DNA of 35,209 nucleotides from Oscillochloris sp. ZM17-4 (GTDB lineage: Bacteria; Chloroflexota; Chloroflexia; Chloroflexales; Chloroflexaceae): assembly GCF_019599295.1 (NCBI RefSeq), contig NZ_JAIEWN010000003.1, forward strand, positions 110,954 to 146,162. The letters are read 5' to 3'. Numbering within the stretch: position 1 is the first letter of the stretch; every line of letters begins with the position of its first letter. The notes below the pieces were generated by a model. It worked only from the letters and a program-made list of their open reading frames with translations, had not been told where the DNA came from and made no database searches. Shown piece after piece: positions 16,926 through 30,719 of the stretch. The translations under genes were made by a program, and so were the position numbers.

Positions 16926-16980
16926 GCAGACGCATAAAGGGGGCGGGCCACTCTGTGGCCCGCCCCCTTTATGCGTCTGC
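16926..16980. terminator. 26-bp perfect hairpin between convergent rpmE and the WYL regulator gene
   Basis: Arms 16926-16951 and 16955-16980 are perfectly complementary with a three-base loop. The stem has a GC-rich core flanked by AAA/TTT and a GCAGACGCAT end. The symmetry suits bidirectional termination; stems this long without mismatch are uncommon. Confidence 0.85.
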
Positions 16981-19492: not shown

Positions 19493-19963
19493 ATGATCGG
19501 AATTGTGATGGGGAGCGACAGCGACCTGCCGACGATGCAGGGCGCCGCCGATGTCTGTCGGGAGTTTGGGGTGGCCTACGAGCTGCGGGTGGTCTCGGCG
19601 CACCGCACGCCGCAGGACATGGCCGAGTACGGCGTGGCCGCCCACACCCGCGGCCTGCGGGTGATCATCGCCGGGGCTGGCGGGGCCGCCCACCTGCCCG
19701 GCATGCTCGCCGCCTACTCGCCCCTGCCGGTGATCGGCGTGCCCGTGCAGAGTAAGGCGCTCAGCGGGCTCGACTCGCTGCTCTCGATCGTGCAGATGCC
19801 GGCCGGCGTGCCGGTTGCCACCGTGGCTATCGGCGGCGGGCGGAACGCCGGCCTGCTGGCCGTGCAGATCCTCGCCGCGTCGGACCCGGCGCTGCTGGAG
19901 AAGGTCCTGGCCTATAAAGCGGGCCTGGCCGCGCAGTCGCGGGCGAAGAACGCGAGCCTGTAG
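19493..19963 (+). CDS. purE: N5-carboxyaminoimidazole ribonucleotide mutase
   Basis: Class I PurE, which moves the carboxyl group of N5-CAIR to C4, giving CAIR. The presence of purK just upstream supports class I. The 156-aa protein has [34 protein letters not shown] with the catalytic SAHR, and [23 protein letters not shown] 19493 is preceded by GGGAGG at about ten bases; the frame from 19460 has none. The last residues Ala-Ser-Leu and the stop are inside a 24-bp palindrome, and the convergent gene also ends Ala-Ser-Leu. Confidence 0.96.
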
Positions 19964-19997
19964 GGACGCAGCGCGCTGCGTCCCTACAGGCTCGCGT
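19950..19997. repeat. Palindrome spanning both stop codons (family copy B)
   Basis: Arms 19950-19973 and 19974-19997 are complementary over 24 bp with no loop. The core TAGGGACGCAGCG matches the other family copies. The outer 11 bases of each arm (ACGCGAGCCTG) are coding sequence of purE on one strand and of the 74-aa gene on the other. Confidence 0.92.
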
Positions 19998-21139: not shown

Positions 21140-21721
21140 GTGACACGTCCAGGTTCGGGCGGCCGGCTCGAGGTGATCTGCGGGTGTATGTTCAGCGGCA
21201 AGACTGAGGAGTTGATCCGGCGGATGCGACAGGTGCAGATCGCCCGTCAGTCATGCAAGGTCTTCACGCCGCGGCTCGACACGCGCTACAGTAGCAGCCA
21301 TGTCGCCAGCCATAGCGGCGCGCGGCTGGAGGCGGTGCCGGTGAGCTCAATCAGGGAGGTGATTGCCGGGGCCGAGGATATCCAGGTGATCGCCATCGAC
21401 GAGCTACACTTTCTAGAGGACCGTCCGGAGGATATTGTCGCCGCCTGCCAGGAGCTCGCCGACCGTGGGCTGCGCGTGCTGGTGGCCGGGCTCGACCAGG
21501 ACTACCGCGCCGAGCCCTTCCCGGCGATGTCGCAGCTGATGGCGCTGGCCGAGCAGGTGGACAAGCTCTACGCGATCTGCGTGCGCTGCGGAGCCTACGC
21601 CACCCGCTCGCAGCGCCTGATCGACGGCCGCCCGGCACCCGCCGACGCGCCGACGATCGTGGTGGGCGGCCTCGACCTGTACGAGGCGCGCTGCCGCAGC
21701 TGCTACGAGCGCGCCCGTTAA
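21140..21721 (+). CDS. tdk: Thymidine kinase, type II
   Basis: Phosphorylates thymidine (and deoxyuridine) in salvage. The 193-aa protein has a P-loop [11 protein letters not shown] (residues 15-25), catalytic Glu in AIDELHFL (E88), and the four zinc-binding cysteines C147/C150 and C185/C188 of the lasso domain. [14 protein letters not shown] is the usual segment. Position 16, most often Pro in this family, is Cys. GTG start with GGAGGAGG upstream; an extended -10 TGG-TATACT is at 21023-21031. The gene ends just before a heptamer hairpin array. Confidence 0.95.
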
Positions 21722-21725
21722 GACA

Positions 21726-21780
21726 AGGGGACAGGGGACAGGGAGTTGCCCTGTCCCCTGTCCCCTGTCCCCTGTCCCCT
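21726..21780. repeat. GGGGACA heptamer inverted array
   Basis: The left arm has two GGGGACA units (21726-21743); the right side has repeated CTGTCCC units (21749-21780). 18 bp pair perfectly around AGTTG. It lies between the convergent tdk and pspA genes and can fold in either transcript. Confidence 0.9.
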
Positions 21781-21784
21781 CATT

Positions 21785-22447
21785 TTAGCTCAGGCCCATC
21801 TTCCGCTTGAGCTCGGCCAGCTCCGAGTCGACCTCCTGATCCTTCTCCAGGTTGCGGAACTTCGTCTCGAGCGAGCCCTGCTCCAGCTTGGCCATCGCCT
21901 CGGCCTTGGCGAGCCGGTCGTCGACCTTATCCTCAAGATCATCGAGCTTGTCCATCGCGCTGATCCGGCCCATGCTGGCGGTCGTGCGCTGGAGGGCCTC
22001 CTGCGTTGCGGCGCGGTTCTTCTTGGCGATGATCAGCTCTTTCTTCGCCTTCACCTCCGCGATCCGCGTCTCCAGATCCACCAGGGCGTCCTGGAGGGCG
22101 CTGACCTGCTCCTCCTGGGCGACCTCCTGCTGGCGGTACTGGTCGGACAGCTTCTGGGCCTGCACCTTGCGCGCGAGGGCGGCCTTGGCCAGCGCCTCAT
22201 CGCCGGCGCGCAGGGCCGCCTCGGCCTTCGACTGCCACTGGTCGGCCTCGCCCTGGGTTGAGATCCGTCGCTGCTCCAGCTTCGTCTCATCGGCCATGGC
22301 GGCTGCGACACCGGTGCGCGCCTCGTAGAGCTCATTGGTGAGCTGGCGCAGGTACTCGTTCGCCATCTTCTCAGGGTCCTCGGCCTTGTCGAGCATAGAG
22401 TTGACGTTGGCGCTGACGAGATCCTTGATTCGGCCCAGGATAGACAT
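21785..22447 (-). CDS. PspA/Vipp1 (IM30) family membrane-stress protein
   Basis: A 220-aa coiled-coil protein of the ESCRT-III-like PspA/Vipp1 superfamily, which coats and repairs the inner membrane. It opens MSILGRIKDLVSANVNSMLD with the amphipathic membrane-binding helix, then EDPEKMANEYLRQLTNELYE, long heptad helices with many Ala/Glu/Lys, and ends DSELAELKRKMGLS. There is no C-terminal Vipp1 extension, so it is nearer to PspA in length. ATG 22447 follows AAGGAGG. No pspB/pspC or PspF is beside it. It has its own promoter at 22534-22562. Confidence 0.92.
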   Translation of the reverse strand: MSILGRIKDLVSANVNSMLDKAEDPEKMANEYLRQLTNELYEARTGVAAAMADETKLEQRRISTQGEADQWQSKAEAALRAGDEALAKAALARKVQAQKLSDQYRQQEVAQEEQVSALQDALVDLETRIAEVKAKKELIIAKKNRAATQEALQRTTASMGRISAMDKLDDLEDKVDDRLAKAEAMAKLEQGSLETKFRNLEKDQEVDSELAELKRKMGLS

Positions 22448-27704: not shown

Positions 27705-27724
27705 TGCCGCTTCTGGCAGGGGCG

Positions 27725-27856
27725 TTTGGATCACGAAGGACGTTTGGATCACGAAGGACGCGAAGGGGGTTTGGATCACGAAGGACGCGAAGGGGTGCGG
27801 AAGACGCGAAGGACGCGAAGGGCGCGAGGGCGCGAAGGGGTGCGGAGGGCGCGGAG
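27725..27856. repeat. Minisatellite with GGATCACGAAGGACG units
   Basis: Three exact 18-base copies of TTTGGATCACGAAGGACG stand at 27725-27742, 27743-27760 and 27770-27787. They are followed by degenerate nine-base units (GAAGGACGC, GAAGGGCGC, GAGGGCGC) up to about 27856. It fills the 199-base spacer upstream of the TlpA-like gene and touches the 3' end of the glycoside hydrolase. Confidence 0.9.
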
Positions 27857-27859
27857 TGG

Positions 27860-28969
27860 TTAGGGTTTTGCTTTAGGGGCTGCGTACGCCTGCACCGCCA
27901 GATAGATCGCGCGCGGGGTGCCGTCGGGGGCGACGAAGTTCCAGCTGTCGGGGTAGGAGTGGGTGGAGAAGGGCGTGCTGAACTGCCAGAGGGCGACGGC
28001 GACGAGCCAGGGGTAGCCGCGGGCCTGCTCGTAGGTGGCGATCGTCCAGCGTATGCGGCTGGCCGGGCTGATCGCGGCGCTCCAGCGCGGGTGGTCGTTG
28101 TAGCCGCCCTCGGTGATGATGATCGGCTTGCCCTGGCCGCCGAGCCGGTCGAGCAGGGCGCGCACCAGCTCGATGCGGCGGAAGTTGACCTGGGTGGGGG
28201 CGGGCGCGGCGTCGGGCGGCTCCTGTCCACCGTAGGCGTGGACGGCCCACATGTCGAAGAAGGGGCCGGCCTGGGCGTCGTAGAGCGAGGCCAGGTACTG
28301 CATGTCGTCCATGCGGGTCGCGCCGCCGTCGATCGACTGGCCGGGCGAGAGCGCCCCGGCGATGATGATCGCGTCGGGGACGGCGGCCTTGACGGTGGGG
28401 TAGACCACCTTGAGCAGGGCGGCGTAGGCGCCGGGGTCGGGCGGGCGCTCGCCCCACTCGAAGCGCAGGTTGGGCTCGTTCCAGATCTGGATGTGGCGCA
28501 GGCCGAGGGGCCGGTAGCGGGCGGCGAAGGCGGCCACGTAGTTGGCGTAGTCCTGGTAGCGGGCCGGGTCGAGGTAGCGGTCGGTGGCGTCGGCGGGCCT
28601 GGCCCAGATCGGCACGAGGTCGAGCCGGGCGACGACCTGGAGCCCCTGGCGGCGGGCGTGCTCGATGACCATGTCGGAGCCTGACCAGTCGTAGCCGTAG
28701 CGCGAGCGGGGCTGGACGTAGGCCCAGGGGAAGAGCTCGACAACCCAGCTGGCGCCCATCTCACGCACCTGCTCTAGGCTGCGCTGGATGTAGGCCTCAT
28801 CGCCGACGCCGTTGAGCCGGGTGTGGACGCCGACCAGCGGGTTGCTCGTGCTGACCTGCTGCTGGGGGGGCAGGTGCAGCGTGCGGGGCAGCCGGGGGCC
28901 GATGAACTCGGCCAGGGTGAGGGCGACCATGGCCAGGGCGGCCAGGGCGATAGGGGCAGTGCGTGACAT
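27860..28969 (-). CDS. Clan GH-A glycoside hydrolase-like protein, membrane-anchored
   Basis: 369 aa from ATG 28969 (GGGAG upstream). An N-terminal hydrophobic signal or anchor (IALAALAMVALTLAEF) precedes a TIM-barrel domain. The acid/base Glu is in HIQIWNEPNLRFEW (E165) and the nucleophile Glu in PIIITEGGYNDH (E287), the strand 4 and 7 positions of clan GH-A (GH5/GH39-like). LVGVHTRLNGVGDEAY and WVVELFPWAYVQP fit the first strands. The sugar specificity cannot be read. The open frame goes on to 29035 but crosses the divergent promoter region. Its neighbours suggest no polysaccharide locus. Confidence 0.85.
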   Translation of the reverse strand: MSRTAPIALAALAMVALTLAEFIGPRLPRTLHLPPQQQVSTSNPLVGVHTRLNGVGDEAYIQRSLEQVREMGASWVVELFPWAYVQPRSRYGYDWSGSDMVIEHARRQGLQVVARLDLVPIWARPADATDRYLDPARYQDYANYVAAFAARYRPLGLRHIQIWNEPNLRFEWGERPPDPGAYAALLKVVYPTVKAAVPDAIIIAGALSPGQSIDGGATRMDDMQYLASLYDAQAGPFFDMWAVHAYGGQEPPDAAPAPTQVNFRRIELVRALLDRLGGQGKPIIITEGGYNDHPRWSAAISPASRIRWTIATYEQARGYPWLVAVALWQFSTPFSTHSYPDSWNFVAPDGTPRAIYLAVQAYAAPKAKP

Positions 28970-29014
28970 GGGGTCTCCCGTTGTGGGGCGGCGCCGCGCG
29001 CGGGGCGCGTCACC

Positions 29015-29043
29015 TTGCGCCGCATGGGGAGCCATGTTATAAC
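29015..29043 (+). promoter_or_regulatory. Promoter of the phytoene desaturase-like gene
   Basis: TTGCGC (29015-29020), 17 bases, TATAAC (29038-29043). The leader of about 78 nt contains the hairpin at 29060-29094. Confidence 0.6.
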
Positions 29044-29127: not shown

Positions 29128-30507
29128 ATGCGGGTGATTATCGCGGGCTCCGGCCCCTCGGGGATGGTGGTGGCGCGCACGCTGGCCGGGCGCGGCCACG
29201 AGGTGGTGGTGCTGGAGAAGCGCGAGGTGCCGGGCGGTAAGGTGTCGGCCTGGCGCGACGCCGATGGCGACTGGGTGGAGAGCGGGCTGCACGTCTTCTT
29301 CGGGGCCTACCATACCCTGCTGGGCTTCCTGGGCGAGCACGGCCTGGGCGACACCTTCAACTGGAAGCCGGCGGAGATGATCTTCGCCTCGGAGCGCCAC
29401 GGCATGGCCGGGATCTCGTTCGTGCCCTGGCTGCCCACGCCGCTGAACGGGCTGGCCGGGGTGCTGAAGTTTACGCCGCTGACCCTGGGCGACAAGCTGC
29501 GCATGGGCCTGGGCCTGCTGCGGCCGATCTTCGGCGACCAGTCCTATGTGGACCAGCAGGACGACCAGAGCTACGCCGCCTGGCACCTGCGCCACGGCAT
29601 GGGCCAGCGCTCGCTGGACGAGGTGATGCACACGATGGCCCTGGCGCTGAACTTCCAGCGGGCTGATAAGGTCTCGGCGAAGCTGGCGCTGACGGCGATG
29701 CTGCACTTCGCCCACGAGAAGAACGCGCCGAAGATGGCGCTGGTGAAGGGCTCGCCCGACACGAATATCTGGCGGCCGCTGATCGGGCAGATCGAGGGGC
29801 TGGGCGGCCAGGTGCTGCTGGGCCGCCGGGTGGCCTCGATGCTCTACGACGAGCCGGCGAACGAGCTGCGGGGCTTCGTGCTCGACGACGGCAGCGTCAT
29901 CCAGGGCGACGCCTATGTCTCGGCGATGCCGGTACACAGCCTGCGCAAGGTGTTGCCGGACGCGCTGCGGCAGTTCGACTACTTCGACAACCTGAAGCAC
30001 CTCAAGGGCTCGCCGGTGATCACCATGCAGCTGTTCTTCGACCGGCAGATCGCCGGGGTGGACAACCTGCTGTTCAGCGCGGGGACGCACCTGAGCGTCT
30101 ACGCCGACATGGCGATGGTCGCGCCGGAGTACCACAACGGCGGCCAGAGCATCATGCAGTTTGTGGTGGCCCCGGCCGAGAAGCTGATCGGCATGCCCGA
30201 TGATGAGCTGGTGCGCTTTGTGATGGATGAGTTCACCCGGCTGCACCCGGTCGCCCGCGAGGCAACGCTGCTCAAGCATACGATCGTGCGCATCCCGAAC
30301 TCGGTCTACCAGGCCCTGCCGGGGGTGGACCAGTACCGGCCCGACCAGGCCTCGCCGGTGCGCAACCTGTTTCTGGCCGGCGACTACACGCGCCAGCACT
30401 TCCTGGCCTCGATCGAGGGGGCGACGATCAGCGGGAAGCTCTGCGTGGAGCGGATCGAGTCGGCGGTGGCCCGGGGCGACCTCGCGGCGGCGGCGGCGAC
30501 GGCGTAG
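29128..30507 (+). CDS. Phytoene/zeta-carotene desaturase-like FAD oxidoreductase (CrtP/PDS type)
   Basis: A 459-aa flavoprotein. The Rossmann motif is MRVIIAGSGPSGMVVARTLA (G7-x-G-x-x-G12), followed by VLEKREVPGGKVSAWRDADG and WVESGLHVFFGAYHTLLGFL. These are close to the cyanobacterial/plant phytoene desaturase opening, unlike CrtI. The C-terminal FLAGDYTRQHFLASIEGATI is the GDYT FAD motif of that family. It would desaturate a carotenoid or related isoprenoid at the membrane. No crtB, crtQ or other carotenoid gene is nearby, so the substrate is open. ATG 29128 has GAGGTGG five bases before it. The stop codon begins repeat copy C. Confidence 0.88.
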   Translation: MRVIIAGSGPSGMVVARTLAGRGHEVVVLEKREVPGGKVSAWRDADGDWVESGLHVFFGAYHTLLGFLGEHGLGDTFNWKPAEMIFASERHGMAGISFVPWLPTPLNGLAGVLKFTPLTLGDKLRMGLGLLRPIFGDQSYVDQQDDQSYAAWHLRHGMGQRSLDEVMHTMALALNFQRADKVSAKLALTAMLHFAHEKNAPKMALVKGSPDTNIWRPLIGQIEGLGGQVLLGRRVASMLYDEPANELRGFVLDDGSVIQGDAYVSAMPVHSLRKVLPDALRQFDYFDNLKHLKGSPVITMQLFFDRQIAGVDNLLFSAGTHLSVYADMAMVAPEYHNGGQSIMQFVVAPAEKLIGMPDDELVRFVMDEFTRLHPVAREATLLKHTIVRIPNSVYQALPGVDQYRPDQASPVRNLFLAGDYTRQHFLASIEGATISGKLCVERIESAVARGDLAAAAATA

Positions 30508-30687
30508 GGACGCGTAGGGACGCAGCGCGCTGCGTCCCTACGCGTCCCGCCATGCGGGGGTTTGGGGGTGGCTCGCCACCCCCAAAGATTTTTTTGTTGG
30601 GATTTTGGCGGCGAAGCCGCCAAAATCCCAACAAAAGCAGGGTCTGGGGCGCAGCCCCAGGACGTTGCGCTGCGTCCCTACGCCGTC
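30498..30687. repeat. Stack of nested palindromes after the desaturase gene (family copies C and D)
   Basis: (1) 21-bp arms 30507-30527/30528-30548 with TAGGGACGC repeated twice per arm. (2) 12-bp stem 30561-30572/30575-30586. (3) 21-bp stem 30592-30612/30616-30636 around GAA. (4) CTGGGGC/GCCCCAG at 30644-30660. (5) a distant 16-bp pair: 30498-30513 (gene end plus repeat) is complementary to 30672-30687. So one palindrome appears to enclose the others. Confidence 0.88.
30561..30595 (+). terminator. Terminator of the desaturase gene
   Basis: Stem TTTGGGGGTGGC/GCCACCCCCAAA with a two-base loop, followed by GATTTTTTT. Confidence 0.75.
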
Positions 30688-30719
30688 CGCGAACATCTGC
30701 TGCGTCACGGCGATCAAGC

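Follow-up and report, generated by a model that had tools for sequence, protein, structure and literature searches.

A three-hairpin MITE, probably inserted into an older REP-like palindrome, at the end of a desaturase gene in Oscillochloris sp. ZM17-4

Palindrome nesting similar to that described here is already on record for Thermomicrobium and for Volvox organelles. GTAG-tagged REPs are 20–40 bp, high-copy intergenic palindromes that carry GTAG at the end and a 2-nt loop and that often lie downstream of genes; in T. roseum, GTAG-23 REPs and two other REP families sit inside palindromes (Di Nocera et al., 2013, PMC3733652), and the target palindrome of GTAG-23 is present there in hundreds of genomic copies (PMC3733652). 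IS1397, IS621 and ISPpu9 are IS elements specific for REP targets (Tobes and Pareja, 2006, PMC1525189). In Volvox organelle DNA, short palindromes inserted in one another give larger composite repeats (PMC2670323).

The locus considered here lies in a window of 35,209 nucleotides (the whole stretch of DNA analysed, C106:110954–146162) in the 6.69-Mb draft assembly of Oscillochloris sp. ZM17-4; coordinates without a contig name refer to this window. As a draft, the assembly may lack some repeats or a transposase gene. From this genome 1.98 Mb was read in tiles (about 30%), and from a genome of the same genus, G005, which we infer to be Chloroflexales bacterium ZM16-3, about 0.37–0.39 Mb (6%). 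The two are about 87–90% identical at syntenic loci.

Between 30498 and 30687, every inverted repeat listed by the first-pass annotation is in place and free of mismatches, far beyond chance. The outer arms (30498–30513 and 30672–30687; 16 nt) are 100% complementary. Between them lie loop-free 21-nt arms (30507–30527 and 30528–30548), 12-nt arms (30561–30572 and 30575–30586) that, with the GATTTTTTTG behind them, score as a terminator, 21-nt arms around a 3-nt loop (30592–30612 and 30616–30636), and a hairpin, CTGGGGCGCAGCCCCAG (30644–30660). A further inverted pair of 17 nt joins 30512–30528 to 30667–30683, and a 24-nt direct repeat joins 30527–30550 to 30667–30690. The motif TAGGGACGC occurs six times in the window against 0.28 expected, a count reached by no shuffle, and the predicted RNA fold of 30490–30700 (211 nt) has a z-score of −12.2, with no shuffle folding equally well. 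At the RNA level the block is a strong 3′ end of several hairpins, including one T-tailed terminator, which would be expected to terminate transcription between the desaturase and the co-directional kinase/WD40 gene. A search of Rfam (E≤1) returned chance hairpin matches only, such as mir-193, whose 33.5 bits fall short of the gathering score of 55.

The outer palindrome proves to be a repeat family of its own, separate from the elements within. The left outer arm, GACGGCGTAGGGACGC (30498–30513), consists of the coding end of the desaturase, GACGGC, and an extra REP half-unit, GTAGGGACGC, inside which lies the desaturase stop codon TAG (30505–30507). It is followed by a complete REP-like palindrome, GTAGGGACGCAGC GC GCTGCGTCCCTAC (30514–30541), a 28-mer identical to that at 19960–19987. 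What had been described as a second 21-bp palindrome has exact arms; it is this 28-bp core with 7 nt added on each side, and its left part overlaps the outer arm. The family, GTAGGGACGCAGC-NN-GCTGCGTCCCTAC, comprises 27 exact copies (identical 28-mers) in this genome and 96 at up to two mismatches in the core. Its members mostly stand alone, without a MITE nearby, and are often tandem or clustered (C117:110545, C95:199855, C1:279726). At C1:279726 the layout GACGGC-(GTAGGGACGC)n-REP recurs without a MITE and with n one larger. Exact copies are also found in ZM16-3 (23), in several other Chloroflexaceae and in two Rhodothermia records.

These are high-copy intergenic palindromes of 20–40 bp, as GTAG-tagged REPs are, but an unpaired GTAG at one end is not seen: the GTAG pairs with CTAC, so that the two ends have the same form. 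We therefore call the family only REP-like, since in addition no cognate RAYT (Y1 transposase, PF01797) was detected in this genome, a draft assembly. The Y1 genes of relatives, ZM16-3 included, have no such palindromes beside them, and a RAYT was accordingly rejected as the driver. The idea that the REP tag serves as a stop codon was likewise set aside, the enrichment being mild (42% in-frame long frames versus 12–28% in controls).

The terminator, the TTTTGTTGGG palindrome and the small GC hairpin form one fixed MITE of ~152 bp. When window 30490–30695 was searched against its own genome, dozens of matches covered query ~65–179 (window ~30554–30668), in both orientations; matches to the whole block fell mostly on this MITE segment or on the REP segment (query ~4–59), and the complete joining of the two occurred in the window alone. 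In the 1.98 Mb read from this genome, an iterated profile (nhmmer) counts 53 copies of the MITE. Their common layout runs from CAGGGCTTCTGCAACGTC through hairpin A (GGGGGCGGC or GGGGGTGGC) and a T-rich spacer to hairpin B (TTTTGT...GGCGGC/GCCGCC...ACAAAA), GGGTCTGGGGCGnAGCCCCAG (hairpin C) and GACGTTGCAGAAGCCCTG, and the ~152-nt consensus has terminal inverted repeats (TIRs) CAGGGCTtcTGCAACgTC and GACGTTGCAgaAGCCCTG, also given as CAGGGCTNNTGCAAC. Full-length relatives are present in other Chloroflexaceae: the consensus is matched end to end in ZM16-3 (97%), in G002 and G003 (~80%) and in G023 (75%), at full length also in G000 and nearly completely in G016 and G043, with some match in 20 of 61 relatives. 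Eight copies whose TIRs pair as CAGGGC...GCCCTG are flanked by identical 10-bp duplications, for example GCCTAGCGCA, AGGCGGAGTC, CCCATACCCT, ATGAAAGCGC and GATGGCAATG, and three more by duplications identical at nine of ten positions. The element is short and non-coding, the longest frames inside copies being read-throughs of 50–59 aa. Shared layout, TIRs and 10-bp duplications are the signature of a MITE. The three inner hairpins, which travel as a unit in this genome and in related genera, therefore did not arrive one after another, contrary to what had been suggested.

No TIR pair enclosing a transposase-sized frame with a matching duplication was found in 1.98 Mb of this genome and 0.39 Mb of ZM16-3, and none of five DDE_Tnp_1 matches in this genome was linked to the MITE. 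The MITE is often abutted or truncated by another three-hairpin element, whose ends resemble TGCGCATCAACGTTAGGGC and which has a core TTGTTTTGGCCAACATGGCCAGC (L002, L007, L009, L016 and L023, around position 1500).

We consider it probable that the block consists of two mobile repeats, the MITE lying inside an older REP-like palindrome that was opened by a single insertion and not by a chain of insertions into hairpin tips. That the outer palindrome was opened by another element, as the first-pass annotation had proposed, is most likely. A palindrome of the form GACGGC-GTAGGGACGC-[GTAGGGACGCAGCGCGCTGCGTCCCTAC]-GCCGTC would have stood at the desaturase stop codon, and one ~152-bp three-hairpin MITE would have inserted at GCTGCGTCCC in its right arm. 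The insertion would have duplicated 10 bp, or a little more, and moved the end of this arm some 130 bp downstream; the MITE would later have lost its outermost 10–15 nt at both ends.

The features of the block can be read along these lines. The putative left target copy, GCTGCGTCCC (30529–30538, plus strand), lies within the 24-nt direct repeat and has the 10-bp length of MITE-family duplications. The MITE body (30543–30668, plus strand; left border uncertain by ~5 nt) belongs to the subfamily with GGGGGTTTGGGGGTGGC and TTTTGGCGGC and carries the intrinsic-terminator-like hairpin A on the plus strand (30561–30586), hairpin B with its T/A-rich base (30592–30636) and hairpin C (30644–30660). The right REP half, GCTGCGTCCCTAC (30669–30681), starts exactly at the REP centre and adjoins the MITE directly, its first 10 nt being the putative right target copy, and is followed by GCCGTC (30682–30687), the complement of GACGGC and the end of the right outer arm. 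The MITE is thus flanked on the left by a complete REP extended by a single GTAGGGACGC unit and on the right by a REP half, and the 17-mer GCGCTGCGTCCCTACGC occurs on both sides (30527–30543 and 30667–30683). At C95:56988–57015 the intact right TIR of another MITE, AGCCCTG, runs directly into GCTGCGTCCCTAC; insertion at GCTGCGTCCC in a REP right arm would account both for this contact and for the layout in the window. Against the insertion stand three features of the window copy: its outer TIR tips (CAGGGCTTCTGCAA... and AGAAGCCCTG) are absent on both sides, 10–15 nt each, so that a formal target duplication is not readable; the flanking direct repeat measures 17 nt and not 10; and TACG separates the MITE from the presumed left copy of the target.

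Two alternatives bear on the junctions themselves. The inner ~115 bp of the block is a fixed unit, as would be expected if all 190 bp were a single composite repeat, the outcome named beforehand as fatal to any nested order. A search for the MITE–REP junction in six congeneric genomes, however, found only two, in the window and at C95:56988–57015, with different spacing, and the 190-bp compound occurs once. The block is therefore not a fixed unit, and a composite repeat, already contradicted, is scarcely credible. It is improbable, too, that the MITE came to be flanked by two independent REP-like elements, the right one of which then lost its left half by deletion; the frequent clustering of REPs and the start of the right half at the REP centre suit this account, which requires an extra insertion, a deletion ending exactly at the MITE, and a coincidental match between the outermost GACGGC and GCCGTC.

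The insertion that we favor need not imply targeting of REPs. None of the eight perfect 10-bp duplications contains REP sequence, which argues against REP-specific insertion. For nine of the 53 MITEs another palindrome is found within 20 bp, a share that does not clearly exceed the intergenic background, and a preference of the MITE for palindromes was therefore discarded; the two MITE–REP contacts are about what intergenic insertion would produce, and contact alone thus shows no targeting.

At the orthologous site, twelve relatives with the same desaturase–kinase neighborhood lack both MITE and REP. The same-genus genomes examined contain no desaturase orthologue, and the comparison is one across genera. 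One of the twelve, G023 (L052), which belongs to another genus, has a different element between its desaturase and kinase genes, with a CAGATTACGC palindrome enclosed by related termini, AGGGCTGTTGCAAAGT...ACTTTGCAGCAGCCCT. Other repeats in the window include head-to-tail copies of a 15-bp unit, GAGCTCCTCGTCGTC, at its start (1–51); short tandem repeats, GGACGTTTGGATCACGAAGGACG and GGGCGCGAAGGGGTGCGG, at 27716–27856, just past the 3′ end of the reverse-strand gene at 27860–29035; and long palindromes at 16926–16980 and 21719–21787, one a perfect 26-nt palindrome (GCAGACGCATAAAGGGGGCGGGCCAC) and one of GGGGACAGGGGACAGG type.

Palindromes lying within palindromes are real in this genus. This genome is unusual overall, with about 247 strong palindromes per Mb versus 0 per Mb in a shuffled control, and both this genome and ZM16-3 hold hundreds per Mb. 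REP flanks remain complementary to each other past the 28-bp core. In this genome they do so over 3.7 nt on average, where the control gives 0.55 and the highest value among 2,000 re-pairings is 1.17; in ZM16-3 the mean is 2.9 nt and the control 0.64. At C95:340360 one REP sits dead centre in another, and at ZC1:237618 ZM16-3 carries GTAAGGGCGCAACA[GGAGGGGCGCAACGTGCTGCGCCCCTCC]TGTTGCGCCCTTAC where this genome has the uninterrupted GTAAGGGCGCAGCAGCGC...TGCGCCCTTAC (C1:260042). Since the GTAAGGGCGCAGCAGC family has 72 sites here and none in the ZM16-3 sequence read, a later replacement in this genome is possible at the latter pair. L218 and C68:39160 likewise have both outer arms in common, with a different inside. 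REPs at the centres of longer palindromes speak for the originally suggested chain, in which four or more palindromes would have entered in turn, each into the previous hairpin tip; for the present block such a chain is very improbable, and is already contradicted for the inner part, where the three hairpins lie side by side without nesting and make up a single element conserved across genera.

Whether the order of nesting records the order of jumps can be judged from a second REP copy in the window (19950–19997), whose locus-specific 10-nt arms, ACGCGAGCCT and AGGCTCGCGT, allow arm copying to be tested. In the four congeners compared at this site (19960) the sequence differs from one to the next; ACGACAACCT and ACGACAGTTT are examples of their left flanks. 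The left arm of this genome reads ACGCGAGCCT, which is exactly complementary to the right arm, and it departs from the congeners at just those positions where it matches that arm. Arms can therefore become complementary after insertion. The broader suggestion that palindromes insert into palindrome tips thus holds in part, in that REPs lie at the tips of longer palindromes beyond chance and one filled/empty pair is known, but arms are also copied afterwards; the claim that nested order is a clean record of jumps is not borne out, and nesting alone gives no dated record of insertion.

The same observation lends some weight to another origin of the block, in which MITE and REP landed side by side and a later template switch at an imperfect palindrome copied one arm onto the other and overwrote the MITE tips with REP. 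REP letters indeed take the place of both TIR tips, in one and the same register; at C1:162502 and L224 the orthologous flank matches only one of the arms; and quasipalindrome-to-palindrome template switching is an established class of mutation (PMC3820800). We regard this origin as possible although doubtful, as it needs a switch site with 130–160 nt between the arms, and insertion explains the 17-nt direct repeat of the REP half more simply.

Among 122 orthologous comparisons, some of them reciprocal, the palindrome was the same in 31, different in 44 and absent in 42; five were classed as having outer arms in common, and among these five are two reciprocal pairs, one of them a compensated homologue. 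At many gene ends, C1 of this genome (L048–L050, L081–L100) and C1 of ZM16-3 (L247–L263) carry unrelated palindromes at the same site, of the types AGATTGC, GGGGACAG, AATGTTGA and GTAG. Several families are nearly species-specific, GTAGGGCCGAAGCA having 101 sites here versus 1 in ZM16-3. GTAG...CTAC palindromes might preferentially enter the centres of gene-end palindromes without a Y1 transposase, leaving species-specific palindromes at the same terminator site; we think this unlikely, but if true, filled and empty sites at orthologous positions would mark palindrome tips as the actual landing site of RAYT-independent mobile palindromes.

The present case shows how a composite of MITE and REP can mimic a chain of nested jumps and how the two can be distinguished. 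The more useful wider result is that close genomes keep palindromes at the same gene ends, often with unrelated sequence. Comparison of filled with empty orthologous sites makes the origin and spread of REP-like elements testable, and the aspect that merits further study is how palindromes are replaced, site by site, between two closely related genomes.

Among known systems, the inner element resembles MITEs in being short and non-coding, with TIRs, a constant target duplication, many intergenic copies and internal hairpins; it differs in that the window copy lacks its TIR tips and no autonomous transposase partner was found. No description of a three-hairpin MITE with a T-tailed terminator was found in the literature searched. 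The REP-like family differs from GTAG-tagged REPs in the pairing of GTAG with CTAC and in that no Y1/RAYT gene was found in this genome, and shares with them its size, copy number, terminal GTAG, 2-nt loop, position downstream of genes and nesting (PMC3733652). As with the REP-targeting IS elements (PMC1525189), a mobile element appears to have opened a REP palindrome, although those elements are autonomous and REP-specific whereas the intruder here is a MITE most of whose duplications are non-REP. The Volvox repeats (PMC2670323) likewise place palindrome within palindrome, in organelle genomes and with largely different sequence and composition. Because REPs within palindromes, IS elements that target REPs and the nesting in Volvox are all known, the block at the desaturase 3′ end is a new instance of element types that are already known.
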